Shown here: positions 54,117-61,080 of the stretch, piece by piece
How the letters are laid out: each line of letters opens with the position of its first letter
Position numbering within the stretch: position 1 is the first letter of the stretch
Origin: Ostreibacterium oceani
GTDB taxonomy: Bacteria > Pseudomonadota > Gammaproteobacteria > Cardiobacteriales > Ostreibacteriaceae
NCBI RefSeq assembly: GCF_009362845.1
Contig: NZ_WHNW01000008.1
Span: 1 to 64,000 of the forward strand
DNA: 64,000 nucleotides
Reading direction: 5' to 3'
Notes under the pieces: model-generated
Seen by the model: the letters and a program-made list of their open reading frames with translations, nothing else
Databases searched by the model: none
Told to the model about the DNA's origin: nothing
Program-made: the position numbers and the translations under genes

Positions 54117-54932
54117 TTAGCCAAAACGCCCTGTAATGTATTTTTCTGTCAAATCATGGACAGGATTAGTAAATACTTGCTTAGTCTCACCAACCTCAAC
54201 CAATTTGCCCAAGTGAAAATATGCAGTTCGTTGCGAAACCCGTGCTGCCTGTTGCATCGAGTGCGTCACAATGGCAATCGAATAATTTTCACGTAGCTCG
54301 TGAATCAGCTCTTCAATCACCGCAGTGGCGATGGGATCTAGTGCAGAGGCGGGCTCATCCATTAAAATCACCTCTGGATTGACGGCAATCGTTCGCGCAA
54401 TACACAGCCGCTGTTGTTGACCACCAGATAGGCCTGTCGCTGACGTGTGCAATCGGTCTTTGACCTCTTCAAATAAGCCTGCCCGCTGCAAACTGCTTTC
54501 GACAATTTCATCGAGTTCGACCTTGCCTTTGAATAACCCATGCAGGCGCGGACCATACGCGACATTATCATAGATTGATTTAGGAAAGGGGTTAGGCTTT
54601 TGAAAGACCATTCCTACCCGTGCGCGTAGCAGTACGGGATCCATCGCCTTTGCCATAATATTATCATTATCTAGCTGAATCGTACCCCCGACCTTGCAGA
54701 TGGAAATAGTGTCGTTCATTCGATTTAAGCAACGCAAAAACGTCGATTTACCACAACCCGATGGACCGATTAGCGCAATGACCTCTTTATCAGCGATATC
54801 TAGGCTGACATCAAAAATCGCCTGCTTATCCCCGTAATGCACCGTCACGTCTTTGGTGTGCATTTTGGGGTTATCTAGCATGGGCTTGCCAACGGTCTGT
54901 AGTTCTTTAAACTCTTGTGAATCAACTTTCAT
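54117..54932 (-). CDS. pstB: Phosphate ABC transporter ATPase
   Basis: A 271-residue ATPase for high-affinity phosphate import. Walker [20 protein letters not shown], signature [16 protein letters not shown], Walker [24 protein letters not shown] precedes the ATG. Last gene of pstSCAB; phoU, usually next, is absent: the following gene is convergent. Confidence 0.97.
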
Positions 54933-55085: not shown

Positions 55086-56372
55086 CTATTTCTTCTCAAA
55101 GCGCTTGCGCAGATAAATAGCCAGCGCATTGATGACCAGTAACACGAGCAACAAGACGATAATTGCGGCCGAGGTTTTGGCAACAAACGTATGCTCAGGG
55201 TTATTCGACCACAGATAAATCTGTACTGGTAACACCGTTGCCGAGTCGGTAAAGGTTTCTGGCAAATCGACAATAAACGCCACCATGCCAATCATCAGTA
55301 GCGGCGCGGTCTCACCAATCGCCTGTGCAATCCCAATAATCGTTCCTGTTAAAATACCTGGCATCGCCTGAGGAAGCACTTGGTGAAATACGGTTTGCGT
55401 TTTGGATGCGCCTAACCCTAACGCGCCTTCTTTTAGCGACGGTGATACCGATTTAATCGCGGCGCGACTAGATATAATAATGGTCGGCAGTGTCATCAAA
55501 GCCAGCACCAAACCACCGACTAATGGTGCCGAACGTGGCATACCAAAAAAATTAATAAAAATCGCCAGTCCTAACAAACCAAACACAATCGAAGGGACAG
55601 ATGCCAAGTTATTAATGTTAATTTCTATGAAATCCGTGATGCGATTTTTAGGGGCAAATTCTTCTAAATAAATGGCAGCAGACACGGCAATAGGAAACGC
55701 AATGACAAGGGTAATTAAAATAGTCAATAACGTACCTTTGACTGCCCCACTAATCCCTGCTTGTTCTGGCTCTCGTGAATCCGCGCTACTCAAAAACGAC
55801 CAGTTGGCCTTTTCAATAATTTTATCCTCTGCGTACAAATCACCCAACCACGTGGCTTGCTGTGCTGAAATTCGCTGATTTTTGACAGTCTCTCCAGACA
55901 ATCCCCCCGATTTAATGAATAAATCAGCTGCATCGTCCAGTTTTATTTCCACCACCGTTGATTGACCCAATAAACTGGGATTGGCGACTAGCGTATCGCG
56001 TAACGTAAAGGGCGCAATGTTACTCAGCAGTTTATTAAATTCACGACGATCAGCGGCATTTTCTATAAAGGGGAACCTTTCATTCAACGTCAGCCCGAGT
56101 AGTTTGCGATAATTTCCGTCTGATAGCACTTGTGCATCCGTCGTGTCCGTACCAGCGGTGGTATCGATATTTAATTTATCCGCATCAAACTGAACGTCTA
56201 ACTGAATGTAATGCTGAGTAAAGGCAGGGAGTGCCTTTGTCACAATATCGGTTAATAGTATGCACAAAAACACAAAGGCTAAAATAATGGCCGACAATCC
56301 ATAGTATTGAAAGCGTTTTTCTTTGCGGTAGCGCTTTTTTAAGCCAGCTTTGACTTGTTCTGTTTTATTCAT
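55086..56372 (-). CDS. pstA: Phosphate ABC transporter permease PstA
   Basis: A 428-residue permease. After the first helix (about 25-45) there is a large periplasmic segment (about 50-200) not found in E. coli PstA; the permease core with the EAA loop (GALGLGASKTQTVFHQVLPQAMPGI) follows. The longer form occurs in other gammaproteobacteria. Confidence 0.92.
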   Translation of the reverse strand: MNKTEQVKAGLKKRYRKEKRFQYYGLSAIILAFVFLCILLTDIVTKALPAFTQHYIQLDVQFDADKLNIDTTAGTDTTDAQVLSDGNYRKLLGLTLNERFPFIENAADRREFNKLLSNIAPFTLRDTLVANPSLLGQSTVVEIKLDDAADLFIKSGGLSGETVKNQRISAQQATWLGDLYAEDKIIEKANWSFLSSADSREPEQAGISGAVKGTLLTILITLVIAFPIAVSAAIYLEEFAPKNRITDFIEININNLASVPSIVFGLLGLAIFINFFGMPRSAPLVGGLVLALMTLPTIIISSRAAIKSVSPSLKEGALGLGASKTQTVFHQVLPQAMPGILTGTIIGIAQAIGETAPLLMIGMVAFIVDLPETFTDSATVLPVQIYLWSNNPEHTFVAKTSAAIIVLLLVLLVINALAIYLRKRFEKK

Positions 56373-56486: not shown

Positions 56487-57854
56487 TTAATCATACTGCT
56501 CTCGATAGCGCTTAACGATACGCAGCGCAATCCAATTAAGGAACAAAGTGATACAAAACAGCATCAATGCCAAGGCAAAAGCAGAGAGTGTCTTCGGCGT
56601 ATCGAATTCTAAATCTCCTGTCAGCAAAGTCACAATTTGTACCGTCACCGTTGTGACCGATTCTAGCGGATTGCCTGTCAAATTCGCCGCCAGCCCTGCC
56701 GCCATCACAACAATCATCGTCTCGCCAATTGCTCGTGAAGCAGCCAATAGAATACTACCGACAATACCAGGGATAGCCGCAGGTAATACCACTTGTTTAA
56801 TCGTTTCGGATTTGGTCGCACCCAATCCCAGCGATCCATCGCGTAGGTACTGTGGCACGGCAGTAATCACATCATCAGATAACGACGATACAAAAGGAAT
56901 AATCATCACACCCATTACCAATCCCGCTGCCAACGCCGACTCAGACGAGGCGGATAACCCAAGCGTAGCAAACGTATCGCGAATAAATGGCGCGACAGTA
57001 AGCGCGGCAAAAAAGCCATAAACAACCGTTGGAATACCCGCGAGCAACTCTAGCACTGGCTTGGCAAAGGAACGAACCCGTTTATTCGCATATTCCGACA
57101 GATAAATTGCCGTCATCAAGCCAATCGGGACGGCAATGAATAAGGCAATAAAAGAAATCAATAATGTGCCTGCAAATAGCGGCACTGAGCCAAATTTGGG
57201 CTCGGTAGCTGTGGGACTCCAATTGGTCCCAAAAATAAACTCTAGCGGCGAAACCGCACTAAAAAAACGCAACGATTCAAATACAACAGAAAAAACAATT
57301 CCTACGGTCGTAATGATAGCGACACTTGCGCAAAGTAACAGCACAATACGGACTAAACGCTCTACCCGATTGCGCGCATGAAACTGTGGGTTAAGGCGAA
57401 AAAACGCCACGCCAACACCAATCAGCGCCAACAACAAGACACAAACACCTTTTAGCTTGGCGCTTTGCGCCTTTGCCGACACGTAATAATCAACTAGCGT
57501 ACTCATGGGTTCTGCTAATTGTGCTTTATCACCAGTATCGTTGGATTGCGCGGCAAGCTTGACATCATTTAAGGCAAGCCCTAAATCGGCGCCTTGCTTC
57601 ATCGATTCGGGCATCAAGTTAGCCAGCCGTCCATCAATCACCGTATTTTCCAAAGACAACCAAAGCACCAATAGTATTAACGCTGGCAGCCCTGCCCACA
57701 AGGCAGCGTAGTAGCCATGATAACGCGGCAACGAGTGGAGTGCCGTTGCTGGGTTGTCTGCACGCTGTACCGCGGCATGCGCTCGGTTGCGCAAAATAAA
57801 GTAGCCCGCAACAATAATGGCGATTAGTAGGTAAATAATAGTCAGCGTGGTCAT
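56487..57854 (-). CDS. pstC: Phosphate ABC transporter permease PstC
   Basis: A 455-residue permease, the long form seen in many marine gammaproteobacteria, with an N-terminal helix pair and periplasmic part before the core. EAA loop DGSLGLGATKSETIKQVVLP and a final membrane helix. Its start lies 99 bases after pstS. Confidence 0.92.
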   Translation of the reverse strand: MTTLTIIYLLIAIIVAGYFILRNRAHAAVQRADNPATALHSLPRYHGYYAALWAGLPALILLVLWLSLENTVIDGRLANLMPESMKQGADLGLALNDVKLAAQSNDTGDKAQLAEPMSTLVDYYVSAKAQSAKLKGVCVLLLALIGVGVAFFRLNPQFHARNRVERLVRIVLLLCASVAIITTVGIVFSVVFESLRFFSAVSPLEFIFGTNWSPTATEPKFGSVPLFAGTLLISFIALFIAVPIGLMTAIYLSEYANKRVRSFAKPVLELLAGIPTVVYGFFAALTVAPFIRDTFATLGLSASSESALAAGLVMGVMIIPFVSSLSDDVITAVPQYLRDGSLGLGATKSETIKQVVLPAAIPGIVGSILLAASRAIGETMIVVMAAGLAANLTGNPLESVTTVTVQIVTLLTGDLEFDTPKTLSAFALALMLFCITLFLNWIALRIVKRYREQYD

Positions 57855-57953: not shown

Positions 57954-58985
57954 TTACATTTGTAATGGCGTTAGATTTTCAATTGCCATTCTAGTTTTTT
58001 CAAGCTCCGCTGCTGGTGCAGGAATCAATCCTTTTTCTGGCAAGAAACCAAACTCACCCATCGCATCTTCAGACATAAAGAGTTGTGCGTACTCTTTTAG
58101 ACCGGGGATTTTACCCACGTGTGAATTTTTGATATAGAAATACATCGAGCGAGAAACTGGGTAGCTACCGTCAGAGATATTATCAGGCGTTGCTTCAATA
58201 CCATCAATGTCGGCTGCTTTGACCACATCACGATTTTCGTCTAGGAATGAATAACCAAAGACACCAACTGCCGCAGGGTTGCTCGCCAATTTTTGTACGA
58301 TTAGGTTATCGTTCTCACCTGCTTCAATAAAGTGACCGTCTTGACGAACTTCATGGCATGCTGCCTCATAAGCATCTTCATCGGTTTCTTTTAGTGCTTT
58401 TAACATTTCAAATCTCTTACAACCACCTTCCATCGCTAGCTCTTCAAACGAATCGCGCGTACCTGAAGTTGGCGGTGGGCCAAGCACCTCGATATTAGCA
58501 CTCGGTAATGAGGCGTCGATGTCTGACCACATTTTGTATGGGTTAGGCACTAGTGTCTCGCTGCCATCTGTCGCTGGTACGTCTTTAGCCACGGCCAAAT
58601 ATAATTGCTCAAGGGTTAGGTTTAACTCAGGACCTTCGACTGAATTGGCAATGGCAATACCATCATAACCAATCATGACTTCGGTGATCTCTTTGACGCC
58701 GTTTTCTTGGCAGCTATCAAACTCAGTTTTTTTCATGCGACGAGACGCATTAGTGACGTCTGGCGTATCAATTCCGTTACCTGCACAAAATAGCTTCATG
58801 CCGCCACCTGAGCCCGTTGATTCAATTTTAGGGGTATTAAACTCGCTATCCTTACCAAAGTTCTCAGCCACGGTTGTCGCAAAAGGGAATACCGTCGATG
58901 AACCGACAATGCTAATGGTGTCTCTTTCTGCTGCAGTTGCTGCAAAGCTTGCTGTTAGTGCAGTCGCAAGAAGTATTTTTTTCAT
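57954..58985 (-). CDS. pstS: Phosphate-binding protein PstS
   Basis: A periplasmic phosphate-binding protein of 343 residues. A signal peptide covers about 1-20 (ending FAATAAE). The phosphate-loop regions VGSSTVFPFA, STGSGGGMKLF and SGTRDSFEEL are visible. First gene of pstSCAB, behind six PhoB half-sites. Confidence 0.95.
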   Translation of the reverse strand: MKKILLATALTASFAATAAERDTISIVGSSTVFPFATTVAENFGKDSEFNTPKIESTGSGGGMKLFCAGNGIDTPDVTNASRRMKKTEFDSCQENGVKEITEVMIGYDGIAIANSVEGPELNLTLEQLYLAVAKDVPATDGSETLVPNPYKMWSDIDASLPSANIEVLGPPPTSGTRDSFEELAMEGGCKRFEMLKALKETDEDAYEAACHEVRQDGHFIEAGENDNLIVQKLASNPAAVGVFGYSFLDENRDVVKAADIDGIEATPDNISDGSYPVSRSMYFYIKNSHVGKIPGLKEYAQLFMSEDAMGEFGFLPEKGLIPAPAAELEKTRMAIENLTPLQM

Positions 58986-59023
58986 ATCAAAGTACCTATT
59001 CGTTGTTGTTAAAATTGTCTGGG

Positions 59024-59102
59024 TATTATGGCAACACCAGATGACAGTTCCATGAAACTTCGGTGAACATTTTATGATGGTTTTGTGACAGTTTTATGAC
59101 AG
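59024..59102 (-). promoter_or_regulatory. Triple Pho box and -10 of pstS
   Basis: Six 11-bp direct repeats lie end to end at 59037-59102. The two outermost, reading inward on the minus strand, are CTGTCATAAAA and CTGTCACAAAA, matching the PhoB half-site; the next three are weaker (CCATCATAAAA, TGTTCACCGAA, GTTTCATGGAA), and the last is CTGTCATCTGG. This is room for three PhoB dimers. A -10-like CATAAT (59024-59029) follows closely, with no -35, as in PhoB-activated promoters. Confidence 0.88.
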
Positions 59103-59164
59103 TCGGTCGTGGTAAGGCGTGATAAATCACTAACGCGCTCTGTTGATTGGAATTAAAGTTACCA

Positions 59165-59220
59165 CCCCAACATCATCTCCCCAACATCGCCGCCCCAACA
59201 TCGCCGCCCCAACATCGCCG
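59165..59220. repeat. 14-bp tandem repeat, 4 copies
   Basis: CCCCAACATCGCCG three times after a first variant copy (CCCCAACATCATCT), between pstS and fhs. No gene. Confidence 0.9.
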
Positions 59221-59267
59221 CCCAAAAAACAAGCAAGCAATCAACATAAGCAAATAGATCAGCAAAA

Positions 59268-59301
59268 AAAAGCATGACAAGGTAGCTCTTGCCATGCTTT
59301 T
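59268..59301 (-). terminator. fhs terminator
   Basis: Arms AAAAGCATGACAAG and CTTGCCATGCTTTT pair with one mismatch around a six-base loop; on the minus strand a T run follows. A 20-bp duplication (GAGACCGCGTTGAGACCCTT) at about 59325-59375 lies between it and the fhs stop. Confidence 0.75.
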
Positions 59302-59409
59302 AGCGACTTCTAGTCTGTGTTTAGACCGCGTTGAGACCCTTTGAGACCGCGTTGAGACCCTTTGAGACCGCTTTTAGGTCACTTTTAGACCGGCCTTATA
59401 AACGGTTAT

Positions 59410-61080
59410 CTAGAATAGACCCTCAATCTGACCTTGTGTGTCCAATTTAATGTGGTTAGCCGCAGGCACACGCGGTAACCCAGGCATGGTCATAATTTCA
59501 CCACACACCACGACAACAAACTCCGCGCCTGCAGATAGCCGTACTTCACGAACGGGGATAACGTGCCCCGTGGGCGCACCCATCAATTTGGCATCGGTTG
59601 AGAAGCTGTATTGGGTTTTGGCAATACAGACAGGTAAATGCCCAAATCCAGCCGCTTCCCACTCTTTTAATTGACTGCGGACTTTGCTGTCAGCGGCGAC
59701 ATCTGACGCGCCATAAAGCGAAGTAGCAATCGTTTTGACTTTGTCTAACAACGGCATATCATCGGGATAAAGCGGTGCAAATTGTGCGTTTTCACCTTCG
59801 ATAACCCGCACGACTTCTGTCGCCAAATCCGCTGTTCCTTCGCTGCCTAATGCCCAGTGTTTACAGGTAATCGCCTTGACACCTTGCTCTGAGGCAATGG
59901 CCTTGACTGCATCAATTTCGGCCTCGGTGTCGGCGATGAAGTGGTTAATACCAACAACGACTGGCACGCCGAATTTTTTGACATTACCAATATGTCTCAC
60001 GAGATTTTCAGCGCCTTTTTTAACCGCATCAACATTTTCTGTCGACAGCGCATCTTTGGCAACGCCGCCATGCATCTTGAGCGCGCGAACTGTCGCGACA
60101 ATAACAACCGCTTCGGGCGACAGGCCTGCTTTGCGGCATTTAATGTCAAAGAATTTCTCAGCCCCAAGGTCAGCACCAAAGCCTGCTTCGGTCACGACGT
60201 AATCGGCTAGTTTCAATGCGGTTTTGGTCGCAATTACCGAATTACAGCCGTGTGCGATATTGGCAAAGGGACCACCGTGAATAAAGGCAGGGTTATTTTC
60301 TAAGGTTTGTACCAAATTCGGCATAAAGGCATCTTTTAATAACACCGTCATTGCGCCATCTGCATTTAAATCTTTGGCGCGAATAGCGGCTTTGTCACGC
60401 GTATAACCGACAATGATATTACCGAGACGGACTTGTAAATCATCAAAGTCTTTGGCCAAACAAAAGATCGCCATAATCTCAGAGGCGACCGTAATATCAA
60501 AACCCGTTTCGCGCGGATAGCCATTACCCAAACCACCCATCGAAGCCACAATATGACGCAATGCGCGGTCATTCATATCAACGACACGACGCCAAGCAAT
60601 ACGGCGCACATCAATACCAAGCTCATTACCCCAGTTGATATGGTTGTCTATCAAAGCCGACAACAAGTTATGCGCAGCAGAAATCGCATGAAAATCACCA
60701 GTAAAATGCAGGTTAATGTCTTCCATTGGGATCACTTGTGCTTTGCCGCCGCCAGCAGCGCCACCTTTCATACCAAAGCAAGGCCCCAGTGATGGCTCGC
60801 GCAAACAAACCACCGATTTTTTGCCGATTCGATTCAAGCCATCGTTCAATCCAACAGAGGTCGTTGTTTTTCCTTCACCGGCGGGTGTTGGGCTGATTGC
60901 AGTCACCAAAACCAACTTGCCGTCTGGTTTTGATTGAATGGAATTAATAAAATCTTGGGACAATTTGGCTTTGTCGTGGCCGTATTGACGTAATTCTGCT
61001 TCTGGAATATCCAGCTTTGCCGCAACGTCTCTAATGTGGATTTTATTGGCTTCGCGTGCAATTTCGATATCTGTTTTCAT
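59410..61080 (-). CDS. fhs: Formate-tetrahydrofolate ligase
   Basis: The 556-residue enzyme joins formate to THF with ATP, giving 10-formyl-THF. The P-loop [14 protein letters not shown], the folate-binding [18 protein letters not shown] and the conserved TDLATEV are present. Complete. GAGGAT precedes the ATG. With folD it forms the C1 branch; possible formate sources in the window are not evident. Confidence 0.96.

Follow-up and report, generated by a model that had tools for sequence, protein, structure and literature searches.

In the genome of Ostreibacterium oceani the phosphate transporter operon pstSCAB is preceded, on the minus strand 5' of pstS, by six 7-bp PhoB half-sites spaced exactly 11 bp apart (59041-59102), and this array is very probably an ordinary PhoB-activated promoter extended upstream, in which the proximal box would replace the -35 element. 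All positions given without a locus or contig name refer to the window, the whole stretch of 64,000 nucleotides that was analysed.

Organisation of the array

The preliminary description had placed six 11-bp units in register before pstS, with space for three PhoB dimers, and both points stand, since the units are present on the minus strand and six in-phase units give that room. Of its two near-ideal units, the part that holds is that strong units exist, but the perfect ones number three (units 1, 2 and 6). Its start at 59024 covers the -10 element as well; the PhoB array itself ends at 59041, or at 59037 if the linker is counted.

Half-sites were scored by a simple match count, with no fitted matrix, against CTGTCAY, which we take to be the PhoB half-site motif. 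The scores from distal to proximal are 7, 7, 5, 4, 5 and 7 out of 7. An excerpt of PMC4415409 gives the half-site of the E. coli PHO box as CTGTCAT. On the minus strand the array reads CTGTCATaaaa CTGTCACaaaa CCATCATaaaa TGTTCACcgaa GTTTCATggaa CTGTCATctgg, followed by TGTTGC CATAAT, and contains these elements:

59096..59102, minus strand: PhoB half-site 1, CTGTCAT, 7/7
59085..59091, minus strand: PhoB half-site 2, CTGTCAC, 7/7
59074..59080, minus strand: PhoB half-site 3, CCATCAT, 5/7
59063..59069, minus strand: PhoB half-site 4, TGTTCAC, the weakest unit, 4/7
59052..59058, minus strand: PhoB half-site 5, GTTTCAT, 5/7
59041..59047, minus strand: PhoB half-site 6, CTGTCAT, promoter-proximal, at the place of the -35 element, 7/7
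59025..59030, minus strand: -10 element CATAAT with TGC before it, 17 bp from the start of unit 6
59069..59074, minus strand: second -10-like hexamer TAAAAT, probably incidental, 17 bp from the start of unit 2

The three distal linkers (aaaa, aaaa, aaaa) are AT-only, and the three proximal ones (cgaa, ggaa, ctgg) are not.

The pst operon and its surroundings

The genes pstS-pstC-pstA-pstB all lie downstream of the array on the same strand, and the neighbouring features are as follows:

57954..58985, minus strand: pstS, phosphate-binding protein; Pfam PBP_like_2 over cut-off, TIGR02136 below curated cut-off
56487..57854, minus strand: pstC; TIGR02138 over cut-off
55086..56372, minus strand: pstA; TIGR00974 over cut-off
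54117..54932, minus strand: pstB; TIGR00972 over cut-off
59410-61080, minus strand: fhs, formate-tetrahydrofolate ligase, upstream of the pst promoter
59268..59301, minus strand: terminator-like hairpin with a T run, 3' of fhs and before the pst promoter (1 found, 0.5 expected in shuffles)

Since fhs is followed by a terminator-like hairpin, the pst operon is probably transcribed from its own promoter. The same intergenic region holds a 14-bp unit, CCCCAACATCGCCG, repeated in tandem for 4.2 copies at 59165-59223; a 28-base pattern for this array, searched with up to 3 mismatches, has no match elsewhere in the genome. A short-period repeat with AGACCGCGTTGAGACCCTTTG occupies 59319-59392, immediately beyond the 3' end of fhs.

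In genome contigs 27 relatives of PstS were recorded at 30-62% identity, mostly in records named alphaproteobacterial. At the level of the order, PstS matches were obtained in 7 of 32 genomes, including that of O. oceani itself, the match in G028 being weak and that in G013 split into two pieces. This distribution would be compatible with a horizontal acquisition or with loss on several occasions.

The array compared with chance and with tandem repeats

The array is far above chance and phase-specific. Its six-unit sum of 35 is the maximum of the window, compared with a maximum of 27 in 60 simulated first-order Markov sequences of 128 kb each, and the best sum in the window without overlap with the array is 25. 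Within the array stretch the ten other phases yield sums of 8-18 against 36 in register, and the segment score is 15.8, while 1000 simulated 400-bp sequences never exceeded 7.6. The bare two-unit pattern with 3 mismatches occurs 11 times in the window, where 4.4 matches are expected; genome-wide, with up to 3 mismatches, it has 189 matches against 144 for the reversed control, and therefore most of the genome matches are due to chance.

A minisatellite could also produce an 11-bp periodicity by chance or tandem duplication, with no regulator array involved. Tandem Repeats Finder does call a period-11 array at 59070-59103, short-period repeats occur elsewhere in the same intergenic region (59165-59223 and 59319-59392), and other parts of the genome contain period-11 repeats with a partial match to the motif, the best of them with segment scores of 9.2 and 9.0. 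These other repeats, however, fall far below 15.8 and are without a -10 element at +17. The six 7-mers before pstS retain the PhoB motif although the middle units and the proximal linkers diverge, and both the -10 spacing and the downstream pst genes suit a PhoB array, so that an origin as a chance or repeat artefact is hardly credible.

In the parts of the genome examined, the period-11 array at C3:198183 has five units scoring 5, 6, 6, 4 and 4 (segment score 9.0), the region at C2:309486 has three units scoring 6, 6 and 6 and extends to a segment score of 9.2, and C3:193869 has three period-11 units scoring 6, 6 and 6. A -10-like hexamer at +17 was looked for at these three arrays and none was found. 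The first of them (L108:684-738, G000:C3:198183 onward) is a CTGTTAATCCC-like period-11 tandem repeat of five units and a partial mimic of PhoB half-sites. It is possible for short repeats to mimic PhoB arrays in part, at much lower scores.

PhoB and the predicted Pho regulon

Absence of phoB from the genome had been named beforehand as an argument against PhoB control; the gene is present over the curated cut-off. The PhoB family TIGR02154 has 14 matches in the genome, one of which exceeds the cut-off (313.9 bits vs 296.2), and the protein shares 51% identity overall with E. coli PhoB and an identical recognition helix, RTVDVHIRRLRKAL. The phoR gene is directly downstream of phoB. The phoU gene (L107:1531) is located near phoBR, about 1.7 kb upstream of phoB (L107:3258), and not directly behind pstB; an oppositely oriented ORF lies between phoU and phoB, and phoU has its own single-box promoter. 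The 200 bp before phoB contain no clear array (best score 1.6).

Candidates for the regulon comprised 28 rows from 30 loci plus C14:32622, and were kept if a phosphate-related gene was located downstream. At pstS and at five other predicted Pho promoters, which have 2-4 units, the last half-site is followed by a -10-like hexamer at exactly +17:

pstS promoter: 6 units, CATAAT at +17
5'-nucleotidase promoter: 4 units, TACGAT at +17
GDPD (glycerophosphodiesterase) promoter: 2 units, TATAGT at +17
phnD promoter: 2 units, TATGAT at +17
phoU promoter: 2 units, TATACT at +17
olsF (ornithine-lipid synthase) promoter: 2 units, TATAGT at +17

The pstS promoter is the most heavily boxed of the Pho promoters recognised in the genome. 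The offset of olsF is a product of selection, because this gene was picked with a pattern containing the -10 element. The profile score of the 5'-nucleotidase is 419.3 against a cut-off of 436 for nadN, and that of olsF is 602.1 against 620, obtained on a frame cut by the end of the locus.

The pho box of the latter gene (L112:1501-1534, G000:C2:99153-99186) has TATAGT at the standard spacing and is located 74 bp before the OlsF-like ORF, which starts from L112:1575. A gene resembling that for the bifunctional ornithine lipid synthase OlsF, in this predicted setting, suggests that phospholipids may be replaced by ornithine lipids under phosphate control. Two of the predicted pho-box promoters are found near each other at L105:1606-3140 (G000:C14), one before a glycerophosphodiesterase-like gene and the other before a phnD-like transporter gene set.

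A composite pattern of box plus -10 element, searched with three mismatches, finds 8 sites in the genome and, when reversed, none; the pstS array accounts for two of these sites, and two are probably due to chance. The composite-pattern matches C6:43173 and C13:6065 were left out of the predicted regulon. The one-mismatch boxes at C1:279822 and C10:1552 were likewise left out, being without a -10 element at +17 or a recognised phosphate gene, as were the period-11 arrays at C3:198183, C3:193869 and C2:309486, again without a -10 element at +17, and the other one- or two-mismatch boxes, mostly inside genes.

Promoter geometry and use of the units

A gap of 10 bp separates the last 7-mer from the -10 element, which begins at +17 from the start of unit 6. 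The TGC preceding CATAAT presumably makes it an extended -10 form, and the hexamer differs from TAN3T at its first base. A consensus scan of 58900-59500 found 0 sigma70-type pairs, where only 1.0 would be expected in shuffles. In other genomes, +17 was the best offset for TATAAT among those from 8 to 44 in array-bearing pst promoters (mean 2.85; 40 of 41 scorable), and at least 4 matches to TATAAT at +17 were present in 15 of the 40 scorable promoters. The spacing is the same as that of E. coli Pho boxes, which, according to an excerpt of PMC1906773, sit 10 bp upstream of the -10 element.

Between CATAAT and the start codon of pstS lies a 39-bp leader with AGGT at 58994-58997. Relative to this codon, unit 6 begins at -62, and the corresponding distances of the last unit are -66 for GDPD, -60 for phnD and -63 for olsF, the values for GDPD and olsF relying on ATG starts chosen inside longer listed frames. 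The spacing between unit 6 and the start codon is thus the usual one, and therefore the extra units extend upstream of the standard position.

We infer from this arrangement that phosphorylated PhoB would bind the six 11-bp units head-to-tail, as up to three dimers, with nucleation on units 1-2, the perfect distal box, and on the perfect unit 6, and that the weak units 3-5 would be filled cooperatively. Promoter-proximal PhoB on units 5-6, replacing the -35 element, would recruit sigma70 RNA polymerase to CATAAT, and the extra boxes may raise or grade the output. Graded activation is plausible, the array being compatible with it; units 3-5 may be too weak for binding. Excerpts of PMC4415409 describe head-to-tail binding to the two 11-nt units of the PHO box, an interaction of the E. 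coli regulator with sigma70, and PHO box sequences that vary among promoters of differing affinity.

One alternative is that the strong sites alone are used, with PhoB on units 1-2 and 5-6 and units 3-4 acting as a degenerate spacer that preserves the helical phase. Units 3 and 4 score 5 and 4 out of 7, unit 4 (TGTTCAC) retains just the TCAC end of the core, and a single slot scoring at least 4 has a frequency of 10% in the window. However, given the register, a sum of at least 14 over the three middle slots has P about 2e-4 when estimated from base composition, which places the weak units, taken together, above background. The third unit of E. coli pstS likewise scores 5/7, and tandem PhoB binding would be expected to ease the filling of weak internal sites beside bound neighbours. 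We consider this selective use of the strong sites possible but rather unlikely.

Filling of all six units before a single start, as preferred here, also has to be weighed against two nested PhoB promoters, with units 1-2 serving the distal TAAAAT, units 5-6 serving the proximal CATAAT, and the start shifting as PhoB~P rises. TAAAAT is located exactly at +17 from the perfect unit 2 and, unlike CATAAT, fits TAN3T; the composite pattern matches this site with one mismatch, placing it among the two best of the 8 genome matches. A precedent for PhoB acting over a -10 element appears in an excerpt of PMC6194859, which reports auto-repression of E. coli phoB by a PhoB site around -10. On the other hand, a unit-final T, an A-rich linker and the T of the next unit yield TaaaaT automatically, and -10-like hexamers occur inside arrays because the linkers are AT-rich: 31 of 129 internal units have at least 4 matches to TATAAT at +17, and 6 of 129 at least 5, in the above-threshold arrays of 42 pst promoters besides the present one, together with that of E. 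coli ugpB. The distance of unit 6 from the start codon, moreover, agrees with that of other Pho genes of the genome. A nested pair of promoters is accordingly judged very unlikely, as is the sequence of events that it would entail, in which the distal box would fire first at low PhoB~P, and the filled units 3-4 would then cover TAAAAT and let the proximal CATAAT take over. If true, it would mean a phosphate-dependent switch in start site and leader length.

Comparison with other pst promoters

Two samples of promoters were compiled. The class sample consisted of the best-scoring 30 TIGR00975 loci (L075-L104), from 126 matching genomes out of 274; L088 was dropped for its short upstream DNA, leaving 29, and the pstS reading frames were set by tblastn with E. 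coli PstS. The protein-relative sample consisted of 33 of the 35 loci matching PstS (L034-L066), including the promoter studied here (L061), while L067, whose match is weak, and L068, the second part of the divided gene in G013, were left out. Together with E. coli pstS and ugpB this gave 64 promoters, among them 62 pst promoters besides the one studied, E. coli pstS included. The pairs L051/L052 and L043/L045 look nearly identical, and both members of each entered the count. A script assigned the start codons. An array was regarded as detected if its segment score was 5.4 or more, a threshold set by the 99th percentile in a simulation of 1000 sequences of 400 bp.

Comparison with the pst promoters of relatives had been named in the preliminary description as a check; among the 62 sampled here, none has six consecutive units scoring at least 4/7. 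Five have five, 17 have four, 10 have three and 10 have two, and in 20 no array was detected. The earlier statement that most pst promoters have one or two boxes holds in so far as 37 of 62 have 2-4 units and 20 of 62 none detected, but long arrays are not unprecedented. When the length of the best segment is taken instead of unbroken runs, L046, L079, L087 and L092 reach at least 6, with weak units inside. Among relatives from the order with full-length pstS, L062, L063 and L065 are below the chance threshold, and L064 alone is above it, with two units; in the relatives that could be compared, then, the six-unit array lacks conservation. As judged from these predicted arrays, six unbroken units are at the top of the sampled pst promoters and within the range of PhoB promoters.

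Relation to known systems and significance

By the same scoring, the E. coli K-12 pstS promoter has units of 7, 7, 5, 7 and 5 in register. It resembles the promoter of O. oceani in that both distal units are perfect and the third scores 5/7, before the same transporter operon, and its unit 4 is 17 bp from the -10-like TATTTT, as unit 6 is from CATAAT here. It differs in having five units, with the fifth (5/7) running into the -10 element, whereas the O. oceani array has six, its weaker units occupy the centre, and the proximal -10 element is free of overlap with any unit. E. coli K-12 ugpB likewise has a long in-register graded array, with seven consecutive units scoring at least 4/7, but no 7/7 unit in the run and a different gene downstream. 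The Vibrio cholerae phoBR promoter, likened here by the titles of Diniz 2011 and Blanco 2012 alone, both cited in PMC6194859, reportedly has multiple pho boxes too, with fine-tuning and hierarchical PhoB binding. Multiple PHO boxes in the ugp promoter, an additional upstream promoter of the ugp operon for cAMP-CRP, and PHO box repeats of differing number and organisation in Streptomyces coelicolor are described in excerpts of PMC4415409.

Multi-box Pho promoters are thus already in print, and the six-unit pstS array is a slightly longer version of them that adds no new principle. What the genome of O. oceani would offer is three PhoB boxes of graded strength at pstS together with single-box promoters predicted for other members of the regulon, a set that would be convenient for testing box number against threshold, cooperativity and maximum output.
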